Virus record (IMG/VR): IMGVR_UViG_3300025000_000313
Span: 1 to 31,125 of that record
Length of the DNA: 31,125 nucleotides
Direction: 5' to 3' (one strand)
Source: a virus
Shown: piece after piece, positions 11,527 through 30,755 of the stretch
Numbering within the stretch: the stretch's first letter is position 1
Layout of the letters: every line of letters begins with the position of its first letter
Position numbers and translations under genes: made by a program
The notes under the pieces: generated by a model
Seen by the model: only the letters and a program-made list of their open reading frames with translations
What the model was told of the DNA's origin: nothing
Database searches by the model: none

Positions 11527-14163
11527 TTGGCAGTAATTAATGAAAACACACAAAGATTACTAGAAGATAGATATTTTTATAAGGATACAAATACAGGTGA
11601 AGTAATTGAAAAAACAGTAGAAGAAATGTTTATGCGTGTAGCAAAAACAATTTCAAAAGCAGAAAAAACTCCAGAATTGCAAGAACAATATGAAAAAATA
11701 TTTTATGATTTAATGGATAATCAATTATTTATGCCAAATACACCTACTCTTATTGGGTCTGGTTATAATAAATGTTTAAGTGCTTGCTCAGTATTGCCTA
11801 GAATACCTGATAATTTAGAAGGTATCTACAAACATATGTGGCATAATGCAAAACTAACAAAGTATGGGTGTGGAGTTGGTCAAGATTTATCCGATATTCG
11901 ACCAAAAGGAGCAATAATTAAATCATCTGGTGGAACTTCTGCTGGTGTAGTTAATTGGATGCATTTGATTAATACTGTTGCAAATACGACTATTCAAGGT
12001 GATAAAGCTAGAAGAGCAGCTAATATGGCAAGTTTAAGATTTTCTCATCCAGATTTTAATGATTTTATACATAGTAAAGAGAATGATGGTAATCTAAATG
12101 CAATGAATATATCTGTTACAATTACAGATGAAGAAATGAATAAAATTATTAATGATGAAGATATTGATTTAGTTTGGGAAGGTAAAACATATAAAACTGT
12201 AAAAGCTAAAGATTTGTTCAATGATATTATCGATGGATTGTGGGAAAACGGAGAACCTGGGGCATTATGGACAGATTCTATTAATCGTGATAATCCTTTC
12301 AATCTTCAAGATGGTAAGTTTAATAGTAGTAATGAGCATTATATGAGTACAACAAATCCTTGTTTTGCAGGTGATATGAATTTATTAACCTCTGATGGAT
12401 ATCAAACATTTGAAGAATTAGACAGCAAAGAAATTAATATTATTGATTCAAATGGTAACATATTCAGTAAAAAAGTTTGGTGTAATGGAGAAAAAGAAGT
12501 TATAGAATTAAAATTAAGTAATAATAAATCAATTAAATGTACTCCAAACCATGTATTTATGTTAAACGATGGATATGAATGTGAAGCACAAAATTCTTTA
12601 AATAAAAAGTTATTAGCGTTCAAAGATCAATGTCCAACAGTAATATCTATTCAAAATATTGGAAAGCAAAAAGTTTATGATTTTATGGAACCATTAGCAC
12701 ATTGGGGAGTAGTAGAAAATGTAATAGTCCATAATTGTGGAGAGCAACCCCTTGAAGGATATGAATTTTGCAATTTAGGGAGTATTAACTTAGAAAATCT
12801 ATATGATAAAAAAACAAAAGATGTAGATTTGGTTATGTTTGAATATGTAATCAAAAATGCAATAAGATTTCTAGATGATGTTATTGATGTTAATGAATAT
12901 GTTCTTCCTGAATTCAAAGAAAAAGTTTTAGCAAATAGAAAAATTGGGGTAGGTGTGGCAGGATGGGCTAATTTATTAATTAAAATGGGTATTAGGTATG
13001 ATAGTGAAGAATGTCTTAAATTCATTGACAAAGTATTTGGATTTAAACAAAAGATTGAGAAATTATACAATACGGAACTTGCATTAGAAAAAGGCAATTT
13101 CCCTAGTTGGAATGAAAGTATTTTTGCTATAAAAAATATTCCTGCAAGATGTGCAACTATTAGTACACAAGCTCCCACTGGATCAATAGCAGGAATTATG
13201 AATACTACTGCCTATGGTGTAGAACCTCTCTTTGGAGTTGCAATTCTTAGAAGAATTATTACTGGTGAAATATATGAAGCTAGTGAACTATTTGCAACTA
13301 TGTTACATAGCATTATAAAAGATACAAAAAAAGAACTTGAAATAATCAAAGAGTGTTATGAAAAAGGAACAGCACAAATTAGTTCTGTACCAAAAAAATT
13401 AAGAGACTTATTTAGATGTGCTAATGATATTTCACCTGAATGGCATATTAAGACACAAGCACAATTCCAAAAATATTATGACAATGCGATAAGTAAAACT
13501 GTTAATGCCCCAGAGAATGCAACGAAAGATGAATTATTTGAATTACTTATTAGTGCTTGGAAATTAGGGATCAAAGGGGTTACTTATTATCGCAATAATT
13601 CACGTAAAAATCAAACAATGCAAATTGGAAATAATGAAGTTGGTCACGGTATTAATCTTGATTCAATTCAACCATTAAGTCGTTCATCTATTGGCAAAAC
13701 ATATGGAGTTACAGACAAATATACCACAGCTTGCGGTTCATTTTATCTAACAATTAATCGTGACAAAGAAGGAAATATAGTTGAATCATTTGTAAATACA
13801 AGTAAAAATGGAACATGTAAATCAAATATTGATGGTCTAAATAGACTTATATCTTTAGCATTAAGATCAGGCACAAAAGTAGATGAAATTGTAGATCAAT
13901 TAAAAGGTATTACTTGTTCTGCTTGTACAAGAGTAAAAACAAAAGGAGAAAAGAAAATTAATGGTTTATCTTGTCCTGACATTATTGCTAAAGCACTAGA
14001 AGAAGAATATAAGAATAAGACAAAAATAACATCAGAAATTATTAGTATAATTGAAGATATTTCTAATGAGAATGACTGTCCTGAATGTCATAGTCCAATG
14101 CAATTAGCAGAAGGATGTAGTGTTTGTTCTAATCCTGATTGTGGCTATTCTCACTGTGGATAA
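11527..14163 (+). CDS. nrdJ: Class II (B12-dependent) ribonucleotide reductase with mini-intein
   Basis: An adenosylcobalamin-type reductase of 878 aa (753 after splicing), which makes deoxyribonucleotides without oxygen or a small subunit. Evidence: NTPTLIGSG and CLSACSVLP near the N-terminus, GCGVGQDLSDIRPKG, the active-site N-P-C-G-E (joined after splicing), QAPTGSIAGI, and a C-terminal CPEC...CSNPDCGYSHCG cysteine cluster typical of NrdJ. The intein covers residues 279-403, directly before the catalytic cysteine (Cys404). The start is TTG at 11527 behind GGAGG. Downstream are MazG-like and dCMP deaminase genes, forming a dNTP-supply group. A class I enzyme is unlikely: there is no NrdB nearby and the C-terminus is class II-like. 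Confidence 0.9.
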   Translation: MAVINENTQRLLEDRYFYKDTNTGEVIEKTVEEMFMRVAKTISKAEKTPELQEQYEKIFYDLMDNQLFMPNTPTLIGSGYNKCLSACSVLPRIPDNLEGIYKHMWHNAKLTKYGCGVGQDLSDIRPKGAIIKSSGGTSAGVVNWMHLINTVANTTIQGDKARRAANMASLRFSHPDFNDFIHSKENDGNLNAMNISVTITDEEMNKIINDEDIDLVWEGKTYKTVKAKDLFNDIIDGLWENGEPGALWTDSINRDNPFNLQDGKFNSSNEHYMSTTNPCFAGDMNLLTSDGYQTFEELDSKEINIIDSNGNIFSKKVWCNGEKEVIELKLSNNKSIKCTPNHVFMLNDGYECEAQNSLNKKLLAFKDQCPTVISIQNIGKQKVYDFMEPLAHWGVVENVIVHNCGEQPLEGYEFCNLGSINLENLYDKKTKDVDLVMFEYVIKNAIRFLDDVIDVNEYVLPEFKEKVLANRKIGVGVAGWANLLIKMGIRYDSEECLKFIDKVFGFKQKIEKLYNTELALEKGNFPSWNESIFAIKNIPARCATISTQAPTGSIAGIMNTTAYGVEPLFGVAILRRIITGEIYEASELFATMLHSIIKDTKKELEIIKECYEKGTAQISSVPKKLRDLFRCANDISPEWHIKTQAQFQKYYDNAISKTVNAPENATKDELFELLISAWKLGIKGVTYYRNNSRKNQTMQIGNNEVGHGINLDSIQPLSRSSIGKTYGVTDKYTTACGSFYLTINRDKEGNIVESFVNTSKNGTCKSNIDGLNRLISLALRSGTKVDEIVDQLKGITCSACTRVKTKGEKKINGLSCPDIIAKALEEEYKNKTKITSEIISIIEDISNENDCPECHSPMQLAEGCSVCSNPDCGYSHCG
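12361..12735 (+). other. Mini-intein in ribonucleotide reductase (125 aa)
   Basis: The intein starts at Cys279 (CFAGDMNLLTSDG, block A), has block B around T-P-N-H (His342), and ends in a block F/G region (KVYDFM, then VENVIVHN) followed by the +1 Cys404. There is no LAGLIDADG or HNH insert, so the endonuclease is missing and it cannot home by itself. All splicing residues (Cys1, TxxH, penultimate His, Asn, Cys+1) are visible, so it should splice. The insertion point is the N-P/C-G-E motif, so the reductase's thiyl-radical cysteine doubles as the splicing nucleophile. Confidence 0.9.
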
Positions 14164-16368: not shown

Positions 16369-16430
16369 TATAAATTGAAATATGATTATATGGATTAATC
16401 TATTACTATATAAAGTAGGTGAATTTATTC

Positions 16431-17851
16431 ATGGCAAAATCTAAAACATCATCATATGTCTTAACACTTCGTATGAAATATACAACTTCTGATAAATCTG
16501 CAATTGATAAATACTTTGAATTATCGAGAAGATTATATAATTCTATTCTGGGAGAAACATTGAACCGATTTAATTTAATGCGTGAAAGTAAACTATATAA
16601 TCAGGCAAGAAAAGAAACTGATAAAAAATTAAAACAAAAACTATTTACGCATGCAGAAATCAAATATGGGTTTAGAGAATATGATATAAGTAATTTTTTT
16701 ACAAAAGTTATGATTAATGAGTACCGTAGTTTAGGGAGCCATATTAAAGGTAGATTAGTTAAAAGAGCATTCAATACGGTTAATAAATTAAGATTTGGGA
16801 ATGCCAAGAAGGTTAATTTTATTAAATATAAAGAAATAAATTCTATTGAGGAATCCGATAATAAACAAGGTATTAAATACAGAGATGGAAACATAATCTT
16901 TAACAAACTTAAAATGCCAATTATTATTGAGAATAATGATTTTTATGCTCAAAAAGCAATTCAAGATAGAGTTAAATATTGTAGGTTTGTTAAAAAAAGT
17001 ATAAAAGGAGTAGATTATTATTATATTGATTTAATCCTTGAAGGAATCCCACCCAAAAAGATTAACAAAAACACAGGAGAAATTAATTTATACATAACTC
17101 AAGGGGATGTCGGAATTGATATTGGAACACAAACTGTGGCTTATTGTTCCAATAGTGAAGTAAAACTATTAGAATTAGCACCAGAAATACAGAACATTGA
17201 GAAGCAAAAGAGAGTATTGCAAAGAAAACTTGATAGAAGTAGAATAGCTACCAATCCTAATAACTTCAATGAAAATGGCACATATAAAAAGAGCAATGCG
17301 AATAAATGGATAAAATCTAATCACTATATTGAAACTCAAGCAGAATTAAAATGTTTACAGCAAAAACAAGCAGATTTAAGGAAACAATCACATAATAGAC
17401 TTGCTAATCATATCTTAAAATTAGGCGACAAGTTTTATGTAGAGAAAATGAATTATTCTGGATTGCAGAAGAGGGCGAAGAAAACTACTAAGAATAAAGA
17501 TGGCAAATTTAATAAAAAGAAGAGATTTGGAAAATCTATTGCAAATAAAGCACCTGCTATGCTGATTGAAATTATTGATAAAAAGCTAGTCAATATAATC
17601 ATATTGATGATATTTATATTAAGAAGGAGTTGAGTGAGAGATGGAATATTTTCAATGTTGACGGAAAAGAATTTAAAATCCAAAGAGATTTATATTCTAG
17701 TTTTCTTATTATGAATGTCAATGATTTGGCATATAAAGTTGATAGAAGTAAATGTATTGATAAATTTGATGTATTTAGAGTTTTGCATGATATTGAGATT
17801 GAGCGAATTAGAAATTGTGGTAATGTATTAATTAGTAGCATGGGAATATAG
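16431..17851 (+). pseudogene. tnpB: TnpB-family RNA-guided nuclease, frameshifted
   Basis: IS200/IS605-type TnpB. The RuvC-I motif is VGIDIGTQT (Asp230) and RuvC-II is FYVEKMNYSG (Glu338). In the first frame the protein stops at 17631-17633 after an unrelated tail. From about 17585 the neighbouring frame continues the family sequence: KASQYNH, then LSERW, then IQRDLYSSFLIMN (RuvC-III Asp at 17687-17689), ending in ISSMGI at 17851. One extra A in the A5 run at 17580-17584 would give an intact protein of about 473 aa. The usual TnpB zinc cysteines are absent, as in some clostridial relatives. The ATG at 16431 follows GTAGGTGA. No tnpA is present, so the element cannot transpose alone. Confidence 0.85.
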
Positions 17852-21662: not shown

Positions 21663-22671
21663 ATTAACAAACGTATGGATCAATGGAGATTGCCTTAAGG
21701 AATTACCAAAATTAGCAGATGCAAGTATTGACTTAGTTGTAACTTCTCCTCCTTATCATAATCTTAGAGTTTATTCTAATGATCCATCCGATATTTCAAA
21801 TTGCGAGACATATGAAGAATATTATTATCTTCTTGGATTAGCAGTTGAAGAATGTCATAGAGTTTTAAAACCTGGAGGTAAATTCGTTATTCAATTTGAA
21901 GATTACAATTATACACTAGGAAGAGATAATAAAAGAGGAAAAGAAAATATTGTAGGAGATATTAATAAAATCTTCATAGAAAAAGGTTTTACATTATGGA
22001 CTGAAGCAATTTGGCGTAAATATTCAGCACAAAGGGCTATGTTGGCAGATGGAGCTTTATGGTATCGAAATCTTAAAAATAGTGACGTTCAATTAGCAGC
22101 TAACTGGGGCTATGTTTACTGCTATCGCAAAGCAGGAGATACAGAAAATATAGTAGGAAGCGATATTACATTAGAAGACTGGGCAGCATGGGCAGATGCA
22201 ATATGGAATATTTCTAACTCTGGAATTGGACATACAACTCCTTTTGCAGAGGAACTTGTAAGAAGAATTATTAAATTATGGTCAATGCCAGGAGATACCG
22301 TATTAGATCCTTTTGCTGGAGCCGGAACGGTGAATAAAGTAGCAATAAATAATAATCGCAATGCAATAGGAATTGAACTTCGTCCTGATTTCTGTGAGTT
22401 GGCTATCGAAAAAAGATTCAGTAAATTCACTGAGGAAGATTTTTTACAATTAGATACTAGAGAACAAGTCACAGCAAGATTTGTAGCTGAAAAAGCAAAG
22501 TGTGAAGATGTTAAAGAAGAGAAAGCACAAGAAGCAGAAGTGAAGAAAGAATTGACAGACAAAAAGAAAACTCTTAGGGAGGAAATTAAACTATTGGAAA
22601 CTCAGTTAAATATTTTGGGCATGAAGAAATCTGAAATCAAAAAACTTAAAGATGAAGCAATCAATGATTAA
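21655..22671 (+). CDS. DNA adenine-N6/cytosine-N4 methyltransferase
   Basis: An S-adenosylmethionine-dependent DNA methyltransferase of 338 aa. The catalytic motif IV is TSPPY (Ser31-Tyr34) and comes before the AdoMet motif I DPFAGAGT (218-225), which is the beta-class order. The SPPY form is common in N4-cytosine enzymes but not exclusive to them. The last ~70 residues are lysine/glutamate-rich and likely coiled-coil. No partner restriction enzyme is adjacent, so it is probably an orphan that protects or marks the element's DNA. The ATG follows AAGAAAGGA. Confidence 0.9.
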   Translation: MNKLTNVWINGDCLKELPKLADASIDLVVTSPPYHNLRVYSNDPSDISNCETYEEYYYLLGLAVEECHRVLKPGGKFVIQFEDYNYTLGRDNKRGKENIVGDINKIFIEKGFTLWTEAIWRKYSAQRAMLADGALWYRNLKNSDVQLAANWGYVYCYRKAGDTENIVGSDITLEDWAAWADAIWNISNSGIGHTTPFAEELVRRIIKLWSMPGDTVLDPFAGAGTVNKVAINNNRNAIGIELRPDFCELAIEKRFSKFTEEDFLQLDTREQVTARFVAEKAKCEDVKEEKAQEAEVKKELTDKKKTLREEIKLLETQLNILGMKKSEIKKLKDEAIND

Positions 22672-25162
22672 ATTAGAAATACCAAAAGATAAAATAAGTT
22701 ACATACGCACCATTGAGGGAAGAAAGTTTAAGGATGGGTTCTGGTTTTTTCCAGATTCATCCCTTCCTAAATTAAAGGAATTAAAAATTATTGATTCCGG
22801 TGTTGAGATTAAAACTAAAGAATTTAAGCAATTTGATTTATCTCCACACCTTAGAGATTATCAAAAAACATTAGTGAATACGTCATTAAACTACAATAGT
22901 TATGGAATATTTGCAGATACAGGAACAGGTAAATGCCACGGTAGTGGAACTGAAATTTTAATGTTTAATGGAGAATATAAAAAGGTAGAATCTATTATAT
23001 TAGGAGATTTGCTAATGGGAGATGATTCTACTCCTAGAGAAGTTTTGTCGTTAGCAAGAGGGCAAGAAAAAATGTATAAAGTAGTACCAAATAAAGGTGA
23101 GTCATTTGTTTGTAATGAAAGTCACATATTATCTTTAAGAGCAACAGCATTTAAAAAGAATGTTTTTGAAAAGGATCAAATAATAAATATTTCTATTAAG
23201 GATTATTTAAAACAAAATGCTCAATTCAAACATCATATGAAGCTTTATAAAAAATATGTAGAATTTCAAGATAAAAAAGTATATTACCCTCCTTATATAA
23301 TTGGTTTGTGGTTAGGAGATGGTTCAAAAGATAATAGTACAATAACTAATTCAGATAATGAAATAGTTACATATATTAAATCATTTGCAAATGAATATAA
23401 TTATAATATTAGAGAGGAAGAAGGCAACAACACCAAAATTTATCATATCAACCGATCAATAAGATTTGGAGAAAATCCATTTAGAAGATATTTATTAGAT
23501 AATTGTGTAACAAATAATGAAAAACGAATACCTAAAGAATATTTATATAATTCTTATGAAAAAAGAATGGAAATTTTATCGGGATTATTAGATACAGATG
23601 GTTATTTAACAAGTGGATGTTTTGAAATAGTTACAAAATATGAAGGTTTGATGAATGATATTACTTTTTTAGCAGGTAGTCTTGGATTTATGGTTACACA
23701 TAAGAAAAGAAAGGGGATTATAAAAAAGTTAAATTTTCAAGGTAAATATTATAGAATATTTATAAGTGGTAATATAGACAAGATACCATGTAGAGTAAAA
23801 AGAAGAATTGCCCCTCCAAGAAAACAAATAAAAAATGTTTTAAATTGTGGTTTTACATTAGAAGATATGGGAATTGGTGATTACTATGGTTTTACTATCA
23901 CTGGGAATCATTTGTATTTTTTAAAAGATTTTTGGATTACTCACAATACTATTATGGGTTTAGAAATATCAAGATTCTATAATAAAACATTAGTAATCTG
24001 TCCTTTATCAATTATTGAGTGTGCTTGGATAGAAGATTGCAATAAATTCTATCCTAAAAGAAAAATTGTTTCATTATGGTCTAAATCAAAAAAACTAAGA
24101 TTAGAAAAATTAAATGAAGAAGCAGATATCTACATAATTAATTATGATGGATTAAAAATAATCTATAATGACATTCTGAACAAAAAATTTGATTGTATGA
24201 TTGTAGATGAGAGTAGTAAAATGAAAAATATGACTAGTCAAATTACAGCTACATTGTTAAATTTAGGAGAACACATTGAAAGTAAATATGTATTGTCTGG
24301 TTGTCCTACACCTAATCATAATAGTGAAATATTTCCTCAAATCAAATTAATTAATCCTGATATATTTGGTAATAATTATTATGGGTTTCTTGCTAAATAC
24401 TTTTCACAAGATATGGAGAATCCGCATAGGTGGTTTCAAACAGATCAAAATAAAGATGCTTTCTTTGAAAGATTAAGAGAACAAAGTGCATTTTTAAGAA
24501 AAGAAGATTGTGTTGACTTACCAGAAAAAACATTCTTGATAAGAAAATATCAGCTTGGAAAAGTCCAACAAAAGTATTATGACAATATGCTTTCTGATAT
24601 TAAAGACAATATCAATAATTGGTCGAAATTCGAATTCACAGCAAAATTAATGAAGTTGAGAGAAATAATATCAGGATTTGTAATAAGTAAAGATAAAGAA
24701 ATTATTGAATTTGAAACACAAAAGGATAATGAATTGGAGAATGTTTTAGAAGAGATTGGAAACAAACCAGTTATTATATGGTGTCAATTTATTCATGAAA
24801 TTGAAAGACTAGCCAAGAAATTTAATGGAATTGGATTAACTTCTAAAACCAAAGACAGAGATCAAATCATTAGTGATTTTAAAAATGATAAAATAAAATT
24901 GCTTTTTGTTCATCCTAAACTATTGGGGATGGGGTTAACATTTACAAATTGTAGTTACAATGTATACTATTCGCTTTCTTTTAGTTATGAAGAATTTAAA
25001 CAATCACAAGATAGAATACATAGAATTGGCCAAGTAAATAAATGTACATATATTGTGTTATCAGCAAACAAAACAATTGATGAATCAATTTATAAATGTT
25101 TAAGTAATAAAAAGAATGTGGTTGATGAATTGTATTTGAATTTAGGGAGTAATATAAAATAA
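22652..25162 (+). CDS. SNF2-family helicase with LAGLIDADG intein
   Basis: An 836-aa precursor (498 aa spliced). It is a DEAD-like SF2 ATPase of the SNF2/Rad54 type: HLRDYQK, Walker A GTGK/T split by the intein, CPLSIIECAW, the DE-x-x motif at Asp519-Glu520 (VDESSKMKN), SGCPTPN (motif III) and QDRIHRIGQ (motif VI, Arg788 and Arg791). It may remodel protein-DNA complexes or act with the methyltransferase, whose 3' end it overlaps. The start may be ATG at 22652 or 22664; no clear ribosome site is visible, so translation is probably coupled to the upstream gene. Confidence 0.9.
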   Translation: MKQSMIKLEIPKDKISYIRTIEGRKFKDGFWFFPDSSLPKLKELKIIDSGVEIKTKEFKQFDLSPHLRDYQKTLVNTSLNYNSYGIFADTGTGKCHGSGTEILMFNGEYKKVESIILGDLLMGDDSTPREVLSLARGQEKMYKVVPNKGESFVCNESHILSLRATAFKKNVFEKDQIINISIKDYLKQNAQFKHHMKLYKKYVEFQDKKVYYPPYIIGLWLGDGSKDNSTITNSDNEIVTYIKSFANEYNYNIREEEGNNTKIYHINRSIRFGENPFRRYLLDNCVTNNEKRIPKEYLYNSYEKRMEILSGLLDTDGYLTSGCFEIVTKYEGLMNDITFLAGSLGFMVTHKKRKGIIKKLNFQGKYYRIFISGNIDKIPCRVKRRIAPPRKQIKNVLNCGFTLEDMGIGDYYGFTITGNHLYFLKDFWITHNTIMGLEISRFYNKTLVICPLSIIECAWIEDCNKFYPKRKIVSLWSKSKKLRLEKLNEEADIYIINYDGLKIIYNDILNKKFDCMIVDESSKMKNMTSQITATLLNLGEHIESKYVLSGCPTPNHNSEIFPQIKLINPDIFGNNYYGFLAKYFSQDMENPHRWFQTDQNKDAFFERLREQSAFLRKEDCVDLPEKTFLIRKYQLGKVQQKYYDNMLSDIKDNINNWSKFEFTAKLMKLREIISGFVISKDKEIIEFETQKDNELENVLEEIGNKPVIIWCQFIHEIERLAKKFNGIGLTSKTKDRDQIISDFKNDKIKLLFVHPKLLGMGLTFTNCSYNVYYSLSFSYEEFKQSQDRIHRIGQVNKCTYIVLSANKTIDESIYKCLSNKKNVVDELYLNLGSNIK
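22934..23947 (+). other. Homing intein (338 aa) in SNF2 Walker A
   Basis: Residues 95-432 of the precursor, inserted between Lys and Thr of the P-loop (GTGK/T). It starts with Cys95, has block B near NESHIL, ends in ITHN, and uses Thr433 as the +1 residue. LAGLIDADG blocks are visible as IIGLWLGDG (Asp223) and LSGLLDTDG (Asp314, Asp316), so a homing endonuclease is likely intact. Splicing restores GTGKT. Confidence 0.92.
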
Positions 25163-26958: not shown

Positions 26959-27891
26959 CTAAGAATTTTCACAAATTACAACAATATTACTAATCCCACT
27001 ATTCTCAGGCAAACAATCAACAATCATACTAAGATATTTTCCCTCTATCCAATCCACAGCAAATTGACTTGAACAATTAAGTATTAACTTTGTCTCCTGT
27101 ATTTCTGGTACGATGGGCAATATCCAAGCAGACATTGATGCAGGAGACAATTTAATTTTCAAGTTATCCACAACATCTTCCCATACGCGATTAATATTAA
27201 TAAGATATATATCTCTGTAAGTAGTCTCTGGTAATGCTTGCATGTTTTCACTAGTTGCATTGCATATTTGCGGAGATGCATTTCCGTTTTCCGAGAATGC
27301 AATTATGTCCTCAACCCCATATTCTATGCCATTATTGTTTTCCGACTGTGCAATCTCACATTCTAAAGATGCATTTCCACTTAATGATATTTGCATTTCC
27401 GCATTCCGAGGTTGCTTTTTATTGTGGATAACTTCCATAAGAGTTTCAAAATTAATTGGACTAGAATATCCATCTAAAACATAATTATGTTCTAATAAAT
27501 CAAGTTGTATTGCTAAAATATTCACACGATATTGTATGGTTCTATCCCTACGATCAAGGGGGTTAGTTCTCTCAGAAAGAAAACCTTTATCTACTAATAC
27601 TTTGATATGTGTACGCATTGCAGTATGTTTTAATCTAAGCATAGTTTCTTCTGATAACTGTTCAGAACTCTTAAATATCCATCCATTTTTCAATTCAGCT
27701 TTGTATTCATATCCACACCTTTCGGCCTGAGACTTTTCTTCTAAAACAAATTGATCATAATCTTTGGTTCTTTCTGACCAATAGATGAATTGTTGCAAAA
27801 TAACTGCTTTGATATAATCTCCTGTGATTTCAACTAGTTCTTCTTTAATTGGCACGCGTTTTAACTTCTTTGGATCTCTAATCATGCTCAT
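26959..27891 (-). CDS. Plasmid-type Rep protein with DnaA domain I-like C-terminus
   Basis: A protein of 310 aa. The N-terminal half looks like a winged-helix initiator (KAVILQQFIYWSERT, then TAMRTHIKVLVDKGFLSE). The C-terminal ~75 residues (VWEDVVDNLKIKLSPASMSA, then SSQFAVDWIEGKY) match the DnaA N-terminal domain (domain I), which recruits helicase in DnaA. This fused layout is known in low-GC plasmid and phage Rep-like proteins. The ATG at 27891 is chosen because GGAGAGAAGG (minus strand) sits 8 bases upstream; the frame extends to 27933. DnaA boxes lie upstream, so Rep likely acts there. It converges with the HNH pseudogene 10 bases away. Confidence 0.75.
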   Translation of the reverse strand: MSMIRDPKKLKRVPIKEELVEITGDYIKAVILQQFIYWSERTKDYDQFVLEEKSQAERCGYEYKAELKNGWIFKSSEQLSEETMLRLKHTAMRTHIKVLVDKGFLSERTNPLDRRDRTIQYRVNILAIQLDLLEHNYVLDGYSSPINFETLMEVIHNKKQPRNAEMQISLSGNASLECEIAQSENNNGIEYGVEDIIAFSENGNASPQICNATSENMQALPETTYRDIYLININRVWEDVVDNLKIKLSPASMSAWILPIVPEIQETKLILNCSSQFAVDWIEGKYLSMIVDCLPENSGISNIVVICENS

Positions 27892-27895
27892 AATA

Positions 27896-27950
27896 AAAAC
27901 CTTCTCTCCATGTTTTACCAACAACAAAAACACACTAGACAGAAGGTTTT
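27896..27950 (-). promoter_or_regulatory. Rep leader hairpin sequestering the ribosome site
   Basis: On the minus strand AAAACCTTCT (27950-27941) is exactly complementary to AGAAGGTTTT (27905-27896). The 3' arm contains the Rep ribosome site and is followed by a U-run, so it could block translation or terminate transcription. An alternative pairing exists: the upstream leader segment AGAGG..GTTTTC (27989-27977) can pair with GAAAACCTTCT (27951-27941) with a two-base bulge, which would free the ribosome site. This is the layout of an attenuator with an anti-attenuator. Confidence 0.55.
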
Positions 27951-27964
27951 CTTTTTGTTATAAT
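27936..27964 (+). promoter_or_regulatory. Promoter of putative antisense RNA
   Basis: TAGACA (27936-27941, one mismatch to consensus) and a perfect TATAAT (27959-27964) with a 17-base spacer. It fires against the rep leader, and no coding frame follows before the terminator at 27997. Confidence 0.7.
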
Positions 27965-27970
27965 AAAAAT

Positions 27971-28041
27971 ACAAACGAAAACAACCTCTGCTGTGGCTCC
28001 TTGAAGTGCTAGTTTGGTCGCGAACACTTCAAGGAGTTTTT
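27971..28041 (+). ncRNA. Putative antisense (countertranscribed) RNA controlling Rep
   Basis: An RNA of about 71 bases, delimited by the promoter at 27936 and the terminator hairpin ending at 28041. It is fully complementary to the rep mRNA leader, including the arm (27977-27989) that could keep the ribosome site open. Its hairpin loop contains UUGG, fitting the YUNR U-turn motif found in plasmid antisense RNAs. By analogy with pT181/pIP501-type control, it would lower Rep synthesis as copy number rises. Inferred from sequence only. Confidence 0.55.
27997..28041 (+). terminator. Intrinsic terminator of antisense RNA
   Basis: CTCCTTGAAGTG (27997-28008) pairs perfectly over 12 bp with CACTTCAAGGAG (28025-28036), loop of 16, followed by TTTTT (28037-28041). 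Orientation is + because the T-run follows on that strand; on the - strand it would be a leader hairpin. Confidence 0.8.
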
Positions 28042-28095
28042 GCTATTATTCTTTTGCTAAAAATTAACATTAATATGTATTGGACATGTTAATAC

Positions 28096-28124
28096 ATTAT
28101 ACTACAAATCGACAAGGCTGTGTA
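28096..28124 (-). promoter_or_regulatory. Probable rep promoter
   Basis: On the minus strand TACACA (28124-28119) and TATAAT (28101-28096) are 17 bases apart. The -35 lies within a TTATACACA DnaA box, so DnaA could repress or time rep transcription. The leader to the Rep start would be about 200 bases, covering the antisense RNA. Confidence 0.5.
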
Positions 28125-28168
28125 TAAGTTTCTAAAATTTCTAGAAAAATTTTGTCCACAGTGGATAA
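28119..28168. other. DnaA-box cluster, candidate origin
   Basis: TTATACACA (minus strand, 28119-28127) fits TTWTNCACA exactly. TTGTCCACA (28152-28160) and, overlapping on the opposite strand, TTATCCACT (28160-28168) are one mismatch from TTATCCACA. Flanking A/T-rich DNA and the adjacent Rep gene support a replication origin or DnaA control site. No clear Rep iterons are visible. Confidence 0.55.
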
Positions 28169-28192
28169 GTATTCGGGTCGGATAATAAAACA

Positions 28193-28239
28193 AAAAAATA
28201 AGCCACACTCAGATACAACTAAGTATTCTGGTGTGGCTT
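28193..28239 (-). terminator. Intrinsic terminator of the 99-aa gene
   Basis: AAGCCACACTCAG (28200-28212) and CTGGTGTGGCTT (28228-28239) form a stem with one bulged base. Read on the minus strand, it is followed by a TTTTTTT run (28199-28193). It ends the transcript of the gene at 28244-28543 just before the origin region. Confidence 0.8.
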
Positions 28240-28243
28240 TAAA

Positions 28244-28543
28244 TTATCTTCTATTAGATTCAATCATATCTGCTAAAAGTTTAACTCTTTTATTTGCTTC
28301 TTCTTTCCCTATGCTTTGTTCCCATTCATCATAGGTAGTATTATCTAAATCTAATCCCATTATTTTTCTAAACATTTCATGAAGACATTCTGTCAATAAA
28401 CCACTAACGTCTCGATCTGTTTTATCAGCTACTTCAAATAATATCTTCATTTCTAAACTATCAGCAGATAACATAAATTCAGGAAAATCATTATTTTCGC
28501 AATGCACAGGTATGAATTTATACGGCCTACTTTTTAAATCCAT
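28244..28543 (-). CDS. Hypothetical protein, 99 aa
   Basis: Not recognised. It has an AAGGAGTTG site and ATG start (minus strand). It is acidic and largely helical, with E-V-A-D-K-T-D-R-D-V-S-G-L-L-T at the centre. It lies downstream of the KfrA-like gene on the same strand with a 63-base gap, so both may share a transcript ending at the terminator at 28193. A replication or maintenance accessory role is possible from position only. Confidence 0.65.
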   Translation of the reverse strand: MDLKSRPYKFIPVHCENNDFPEFMLSADSLEMKILFEVADKTDRDVSGLLTECLHEMFRKIMGLDLDNTTYDEWEQSIGKEEANKRVKLLADMIESNRR

Positions 28544-29654: not shown

Positions 29655-29676
29655 AAATATGAAGGAGGTAATTATA

Positions 29677-30534
29677 GTGGCCTTTCAGATCATTCCAATC
29701 GATACTGGTAGACATGGTGTTAAATTATTAAATGGTGAATCTTTTAAAAGTGTAGTAGGTGATTGGCATCATAGAGAAATGTCTGACAATGAAGAGTATG
29801 AAGTAATTATCAATGATAAAGAAAAGTATTTTGTAGGTCAATTAGCCCTTGATGAAAGTTACGCCCCTACGGAAATGACGACAAAATCTAAAATACACCT
29901 GCAAACAAAAATCCTCTTTCTCACTGGGGTTGCAATCTCATTAGAAGAAAATGACAGTGAATTGTACGTTTGTACAGGAGTTCCTATTGACCAGTTTAAT
30001 GTTGCTACTAAAACAGCTTTAGAAAATTTATTATTTGGAAAATATGATATTCAAATTAATGGTAAACATAAAAAGTTCTGCATTGATAATTTAAATATCG
30101 CACCTGAATCTGTAGCTAGTTTTCAGTACGCTTTATCAAAGGATGAAAGTTTAGCAATTGGAAAAAAACGAATTATTGATATTGGTTCGCTTACTGTGAA
30201 TGCGGCGAGCTTCAAGGGGGAAAAATTTATCACAAGGGACTCTTCTACGATCCATTTCGGGACTGTCAAATTAAAAGACAATCAGATTGATAATGAACAA
30301 TATGTCAGTAAGATTGTAGCTGAAATTAGTCAGATTTTTACCGACTACGACCCTTCTGATAGAGTTCTATTAACTGGTGGGGGAGCATTGCAATTTGGTG
30401 ATTTATTTAAAAAACATTATCCCAATTGTTCTATTTTAGATAATTGTGTTCACGCTAACGTTGAGGGTTACTATCGCATGAGCATAAAGAGGTGGTCAAA
30501 ATTAAAAGCATCGGCGAACTCACAGGCAGAGTAA
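29677..30534 (+). CDS. parM: ParM/AlfA-like actin-type segregation ATPase
   Basis: An actin-fold plasmid-segregation filament protein of 285 aa. Phosphate 1 loop is PIDTGRHG (Asp9-Gly11), phosphate 2 is IIDIGSLT (Asp168-Thr173), and the adenosine motif is LLTGGGALQFG (Gly234-236). It is shorter than classical ParM and near AlfA in length, without a closer match I can name. The start is GTG at 29677, because AAGGAGGT (29662-29669) is 7 bases upstream; the frame opens at an ATG at 29659 that lies in front of this site. It overlaps the ParR-like gene by 43 bases. Confidence 0.85.
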   Translation: MAFQIIPIDTGRHGVKLLNGESFKSVVGDWHHREMSDNEEYEVIINDKEKYFVGQLALDESYAPTEMTTKSKIHLQTKILFLTGVAISLEENDSELYVCTGVPIDQFNVATKTALENLLFGKYDIQINGKHKKFCIDNLNIAPESVASFQYALSKDESLAIGKKRIIDIGSLTVNAASFKGEKFITRDSSTIHFGTVKLKDNQIDNEQYVSKIVAEISQIFTDYDPSDRVLLTGGGALQFGDLFKKHYPNCSILDNCVHANVEGYYRMSIKRWSKLKASANSQAE

Positions 30535-30755
30535 AAAGAAAAGGTGTTTATTTTAATCTAGATGATGAAGATGAATTATTGCTTTATAAGAAGGCAAATG
30601 AGATTAAGAATTTTAGCAAATGGGTTAAAAAGCAATTGATTAATGATGGGGTCGTTAAGGAAGTAAAAGAAGGGATAAAAGAGTCTGTAGTAGAACATAT
30701 TAAGATTGAAAGAAAGAGGATAGAAAAGGATGAACTTGAAGATATAATGCTTTGA
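30492..30755 (+). CDS. ParR-like ribbon-helix-helix DNA-binding protein
   Basis: A protein of 87 aa, overlapping the parM 3' end. The N-terminal part has an RHH pattern (VYFNLDDED strand, then ELLLYKKANEIKNFSKWVKK), and the C-terminal part is a basic-acidic helix that could contact the ParM filament. In ParM systems such a protein binds the centromere and links it to the filament; GGGGTA repeats lie on both sides. The start is uncertain: GTG at 30492 lies within GAGGTG, and the next in-frame near-start is ATT at 30501, six bases after that site. Confidence 0.7.
   Translation: MVKIKSIGELTGRVKRKGVYFNLDDEDELLLYKKANEIKNFSKWVKKQLINDGVVKEVKEGIKESVVEHIKIERKRIEKDELEDIML

Follow-up and report, generated by a model that had tools for sequence, protein, structure and literature searches.

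The question raised by this locus is how its rep gene is controlled: is the leader of rep the target of an antisense RNA, and would such an arrangement set the copy number of the element that carries it? Throughout, the window is the whole stretch of 31,125 nucleotides that was analyzed, and all positions refer to it. We consider it highly likely that the rep leader acts as an attenuator under the control of an antisense RNA and in this way determines the copy number of an extrachromosomal element; the parts of the switch, their conservation and, in silico, its two competing folds are supported directly.

The rep gene and the elements of its leader

The rep gene occupies positions 26959 to 27891 of the minus strand, and its product, according to Pfam and PHROG searches, consists of a winged-helix N-terminal domain and a DnaA domain I-like tail. 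The tail had been described as such in a sequence-only reading of this DNA, and the description is borne out by a match to Pfam DnaA_N (E = 8.7e-11) that exceeds the curated cut-off. The PHROG search led to DnaD-like/O-like initiators; no relative of Rep was found in annotated phages. The start codon is the ATG at 27889-27891, which is kept in relatives; a plain list of open reading frames gives a GTG at 27933 instead.

The minus-strand rep promoter (TACACA-17-TATAAT, 28096-28124) has its -35 element at 28124-28119 and its -10 element at 28101-28096 and is 100% conserved in relatives. As had been proposed, the -35 element overlaps an exact DnaA box, TTATACACA (28119-28127, minus strand), which is identical in all relatives; through this overlap, transcription of rep may respond to DnaA. 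On the plus strand, a predicted antisense promoter (TAGACA-17-TATAAT, 27936-27964) was found exactly where the sequence-only reading had placed it; it has an 11/12 match and an extended -10 TG, is identical in relatives and has counterparts in distant leaders. Promoter-like sites as a class are not enriched (4 found vs 5.0 expected from shuffled sequence), and TTATNCACA occurs 5 times vs 2.8 expected, which is not significant. Since promoter-like sites and DnaA boxes are both at chance level, they count only through their positional conservation, and their counts alone were dropped as evidence.

The antisense promoter would give rise to an RNA of ca. 71 nt (27971-28041, plus strand), the predicted copy-number inhibitor; the assignment is based on promoter, terminator, fold and conserved architecture. 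The RNA would end at a hairpin (27997-28036) that is at the same time the terminator of the antisense RNA and the target hairpin of the rep leader. Perfect 12-bp arms (27997-28008 and 28025-28036) enclose a 16-nt loop and are followed by T5 at 28037-28041, which confirms the terminator suggested earlier; our terminator scan skipped this hairpin, as it allowed loops of at most 8 nt. For the antisense strand at 27971-28048, the folding energy is -24.9 kcal/mol (z = -3.25). The recognition loop, CTAGTTTGGTCGCGAA (28009-28024, plus strand), presents the U-turn motif UUGG on the antisense strand. No Rfam covariance model matched the window or any of ten relatives at the gathering threshold, the only match being a chance one to a miRNA (E 0.86).

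Of the five exact DnaA boxes in the window, three are inside rep or adjacent to it. Two of these are located within the gene, where they form the halves of a perfect 13-bp inverted repeat (27161-27173, plus strand, at the same position in relatives; 27422-27434, minus strand). Between them, a repeat search revealed that the rep linker contains four iteron-like repeats of 24 nt each (27256-27415). The positions of this arrangement (27161-27434) are conserved in relatives, and the repeats with the two flanking boxes are a candidate origin; replication probably starts within rep, as in pSK41 (PMC5703833). Upstream of the rep promoter, two degenerate DnaA boxes, TTATCCACT / TTGTCCACA, are arranged back to back at 28152-28168, and exact boxes are present near this site in relatives, one in L002 and two in L006.

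An imperfect hairpin with T-rich flanks at 28183-28256, between an open reading frame at 28244-28543 and the rep leader, is probably a terminator that insulates the rep promoter. Near rep, at 29659-30755, an actin-like partition gene (ParM/Alp type) is followed by a small ParR-like open reading frame; the presence of these genes supports stable extrachromosomal maintenance and fits an autonomously kept element. Elsewhere in the window, as judged by the sequence alone, there are a ribonucleotide-reductase-like open reading frame with an apparent small intein (11527-14163; Cys start, HN-C end), an open reading frame resembling a TnpB-type RNA-guided nuclease (16419-17633) and a helicase-like one that seems to be interrupted by an intein, part of which is homing-endonuclease-like (22652-25162). 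The records of two relatives, L002 and L003 (230 and 227 kb), are classed as viral; neither a large terminase (phrog_2, PF03237) nor a tail sheath was found in them, and they may be divergent large phages or megaplasmids. A terminase is present in the record of the more distant L138.

Competing folds in the rep leader

The leader hairpin that had been suggested to hide the Rep ribosome site is real. Its 3′ arm (27893-27910, minus strand) contains the Shine-Dalgarno (SD) sequence AGAAGG (27900-27905) followed by T5 (27895-27899), which makes it terminator-like, and its 5′ arm was located at 27927-27951 (minus strand) by pairing and folding analyses. The same 5′ arm can pair with a second segment, the pre-emptor (27977-27999, minus strand), as indicated by pairing energy and by folding of the nascent RNA. 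The competing pairing has an energy of -17.6 kcal/mol vs a shuffle mean of -10.2 (p = 0.013) and is longer than was originally proposed. The pre-emptor lies inside the antisense interval and would be covered by the antisense RNA, in line with the earlier proposal. The distance from the end of the target hairpin to the rep start is 105 nt.

When the nascent leader is folded, the 5′ arm is paired with the pre-emptor (0.98) until the SD is made; when the antisense region 27971-28041 is blocked, the 5′ arm is paired with the SD (0.98). In the full-length leader at equilibrium, the two folds are about equal in free energy (pre-emptor fold 0.50-0.63 vs SD fold 0.35-0.48), and the switch would therefore have to be kinetic. 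How accessible the SD is at equilibrium changes only slightly and is a poor test for the window, folding of the nascent RNA being the informative one.

We propose that rep would be transcribed leftwards from about position 28089, giving a leader of ca. 198 nt in which the 5′ arm would first pair with the pre-emptor. With this pairing in place, the SD would be open, the terminator-like hairpin would not form, and Rep would be made. The constitutive antisense RNA would contact the target hairpin through the 16-nt loop and would then zip along its own 5′ tail across the pre-emptor. The freed 5′ arm would pair with the SD and the U-tract, leading to the end of transcription and/or a block of translation. 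Since the antisense RNA concentration would track copy number, the result would be negative feedback. The transcripts, their binding, the choice between termination and translation and the effect on copy number are those we infer.

The same switch was seen upon nascent folding in about 12 of 16 curated leaders; three (L117, L019 and L097) do not fit, which counts against the model, and L020 fits in part. Pre-emptor pairing exceeded that of dinucleotide shuffles in 11 independent leaders (combined Fisher p = 1.9e-9) and cognate pre-emptors and 5′ arms paired better than non-cognate ones (p = 0.002), these and our other significance values ignoring part of the shared ancestry.

A switch that is purely translational, as in pSK41, with the antisense RNA causing the SD to be folded away while transcription continues, is a plausible reading, if a somewhat disfavored one. 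It agrees with the position of the SD within the 3′ arm and with the stem being AU-rich with a long loop; the AU-rich SD hairpin of the window is also a weak terminator candidate, which counts against the attenuator model. The translational reading further agrees with the dimensions of the pSK41 system, where an RNAI of ca. 83 nt has its target ca. 100 nt upstream of the start (PMC5703833), vs 71 and 105 nt here. It agrees less well with the distribution of U-tracts: of 16 antisense-type leaders, 15 have T5 or a longer tract in the spacer from SD to start, vs 3 of 101 others, as would be expected if termination matters, a contrast that is illustrative since the 16 leaders were partly chosen by eye. 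In addition, strong terminator-like stems are found at the SD of several relatives (L016, L019 and L137).

Conservation and spread of the module

The proposed attenuator can be followed in five virus-classed contigs with full Rep, 87-93% identical to that of the window. Two related lineages, whose rep genes differ by a dS of 0.30-0.44, have a 236-nt leader that is 98-99.5% identical outside the loop, and the near relatives show 1-4 differences in the 220 nt from the DnaA box to the ATG. Beyond a block that starts near the DnaA box, their upstream DNA is largely unrelated to that of the window. Thus, the leader is near-invariant despite the divergence of rep, which indicates very strong constraint. 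Loss of the competing stems in elements that keep Rep had been named as one observation that would refute attenuation; in the near relatives, the stems turned out to be fully conserved, and the attenuation reading as a whole is upheld. A low-stringency search of plasmids for DNA-level relatives of the window leader returned none, and none were found for the L138 leader in plasmids or phages.

Most of the distant relatives with an antisense gene rebuild the competing stems from different sequence. In the clade of L156-L161 and L139, four compensatory pairs are present in the target hairpin and pre-emptor, a number reached in 3 of 500 shuffles; when the pairing was slid, at most one was obtained. 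The SD helix hardly varies in this clade and is therefore uninformative there. Four plasmid leaders from B. subtilis/velezensis are identical to one another.

The N-terminal domain of Rep defines a broad family, found mainly in Bacillota, with interchangeable tails. Its members were collected from genome contigs by an alignment-based scan, and among 93 of them the tails are DnaB_2 in 15, Phg_2220_C in 10 and DnaA_N in 5. The C-terminal tail is swapped among these three types in L013-L141, and many of the linkers of these proteins (around residues 140-260) encode short repeats such as QNEQS and QNEES, i.e., in-gene iterons. In members that are part of phage (prophage) or chromosomal operons, the upstream DNA is coding and an antisense leader is absent; plasmid and phage-plasmid members often have one. 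The module is thus linked to the Rep family and is not obligatory; most members are without it, which has to be counted against the model. Leaders of distant family members on Bacillota plasmids and phage-plasmids are unrelated in sequence and contain the same parts: an antisense promoter, a terminator/target hairpin, a pre-emptor and an SD-sequestering hairpin with a U-tract. L039 and L110 are apparent variants whose terminator hairpin is upstream of and separate from the SD; leaders of this type would be pure transcription attenuators.

The blind counterpart of the partly hand-picked set of 16 is an architecture score applied to 117 Rep leaders. The score combines an opposite-strand terminator hairpin, an antisense promoter placed to transcribe this hairpin and an SD helix. 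The full architecture was present in 14 of the 117 Rep leaders vs 0 of 224 leaders of control genes from the same loci (p = 1.8e-7). The motif TTTGGYCG, counted in all 117 leaders, is only modestly enriched, which is explained by the absence of the module from most family members. To explain its distribution on the Rep tree, no fewer than four gains or losses of the module are needed on well-supported branches; hence, leader and Rep have recombined, or the module has been lost, repeatedly.

That the hairpin is merely a plus-strand terminator, or a cruciform or protein site acting at the DNA level at the origin, with the antisense RNA and competing pairing being coincidental, is very improbable: opposite-strand terminator-like hairpins do occur in 74 of 224 control leaders and DnaA boxes are close by, but their combination with an antisense promoter and an SD helix occurs in none of these controls, the pre-emptor complementarity and compensatory changes are seen at the RNA level, and constraint extends over the whole leader, beyond the hairpin.

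The inverted recognition loop and relation to known systems

Within the conserved leader, the recognition loop is the exception. In four relatives (L100-L103, from the contigs L002-L005), it is the exact reverse complement (16/16) of the loop shared by the window and L104 (contig L006); when read directly, it has 12 mismatches to the window. At the 220 leader positions outside the loop, there are no more than 1-4 differences. The inverted form (B) was recovered without variation in four contigs, which come from four metagenomes, and the form of the window (A) is found in two lineages. With either form, complementarity between antisense RNA and target is preserved inside each element, and self-regulation would survive since a single stretch of DNA encodes both RNAs. 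Between the forms, loop pairing drops from -26.5 to -9.3/-9.5 kcal/mol, the residual contact being a 6-bp palindromic UCGCGA.

As a result of the inversion, the U-turn motif UUGG is no longer on the antisense RNA and appears on the mRNA. The assignment of this YUNR motif to the antisense loop in the sequence-only reading thus holds for the window and fails for the four relatives, where it is in the sense loop. That reading overlooked the inversion, the ability of the motif to be on one RNA or the other and the origin that probably lies inside rep; otherwise, its interpretation is supported. Most of the distant relatives (L016, L017, L018, L045, L082, L137, L138 and L139) have the motif on the sense strand, and two (L019 and L020) have it on the antisense strand, so that either orientation seems to be functional. 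In its family form, UUUGG, it likewise belongs to the sense RNA in some lineages and to the antisense RNA in others. In L156-L161 and L139, most of the leader is conserved and the loop varies by point changes, which looks like loop diversification between compatible elements; no further exact inversions were found among L137-L139 and L156-L161, where point changes alone were seen.

Among the antisense systems that are known, it is the loop that determines incompatibility. An inversion that keeps self-control and weakens cross-recognition is a possible incompatibility switch. How new incompatibility arises in replicons under antisense control without a stage of weakened recognition is a long-standing question, to which one-step loop inversion would be a solution, with these elements as a natural experiment. 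The inversion itself probably arose when the template was switched between the arms. Hairpins of rRNA and microRNA provide documented examples of loops inverted by template switching; most of the rRNA cases are 4 nt long, and none exceeds 7-8 nt (PMC8794818). As in those cases, the inversion described here is exact and lies between perfectly paired arms; unlike the rRNA cases, it spans 16 nt and affects an antisense/target recognition loop. A literature search for loop inversion in antisense copy-number control yielded nothing relevant.

There is almost an even chance, in our view, that the template switch was selectively neutral and left compatibility unaffected. Loop inversions of this kind are known from rRNA and microRNA hairpins (PMC8794818), antisense/target self-complementarity is retained, and the UCGCGA contact (-9.3 to -9.5 kcal/mol) persists between the forms; against neutrality stand the strong constraint on all other leader bases, the fall of cognate loop pairing from -26.5 to about -9.4 kcal/mol and the role of the loop, as generally known, in setting incompatibility. 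It appears rather unlikely that the target hairpin serves in evolution as a switch of incompatibility, in which a one-step sense/antisense swap creates a sister element that neither represses its parent nor is repressed by it and the strand differences of UUUGG are the trace of repeated flips. An assembly artefact is hardly credible: short inverted repeats can mislead assemblers and only contigs are at hand, but the whole hairpin (40 nt) is far below typical read length, identical B forms come from four contigs and four metagenomes, the A form comes from two lineages, and the motif occurs in both orientations among distant relatives too.

In pIP501, the loop has a U-turn motif, and, as here, an antisense-induced attenuator (RNAIII/repR) lies upstream of rep; pIP501 also has the CopR repressor, and the Rep studied here is unrelated. 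The likeness to pT181/pIP501 attenuation that had been noted earlier holds for the pT181-type pre-emptor logic and does not extend to a CopR-like neighbor: the upstream open reading frame at 28244-28543 had no HTH/CopR-like match in Pfam and PHROG searches.

The same antisense switch logic has been described experimentally for pT181 and pSK41 (PMC5703833). In pT181, the terminator overlaps the ribosome site, stem-loop IV holding this site just before the start (PMC5703833). As with pT181 RNAI/repC (PMC5703833), an antisense RNA complementary to the rep leader and a pre-emptor opposed to a terminator-like stem are present here: a predicted antisense gene, with promoter and terminator at a conserved position, lies opposite the rep leader, and the pre-emptor that pairs with the 5′ arm is covered by the antisense RNA. 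Unlike in pT181, the initiator is of the winged-helix/DnaA-domain-I type, there is no sequence similarity, and termination is a candidate mechanism. The window does not belong to the pT181 plasmid family, which has a Rep_trans initiator and a rolling-circle origin: Rep had no Rep_trans match in Pfam and PHROG searches. With pSK41, whose origin lies inside rep (PMC5703833), the window shares an SD-sequestering hairpin and, as judged from the folds, a short predicted antisense RNA ca. 100 nt upstream. It differs in that a U-tract follows the SD, pSK41 acting on translation, and in that the RepA_N domain of RepA_N-replicon initiators is missing: neither the Rep of the window nor distant members matched RepA_N in Pfam.

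No earlier report of an antisense switch on this Rep family was found in the open-licence PMC literature. Judged by its sequence features, the leader is very probably a copy-number switch of the pT181/pSK41 type, a known mechanism placed on a winged-helix Rep family. Antisense attenuation would thereby be extended to a widespread, uncharacterized family of initiators from Bacillota plasmids, phage-plasmids and large virus-like elements.
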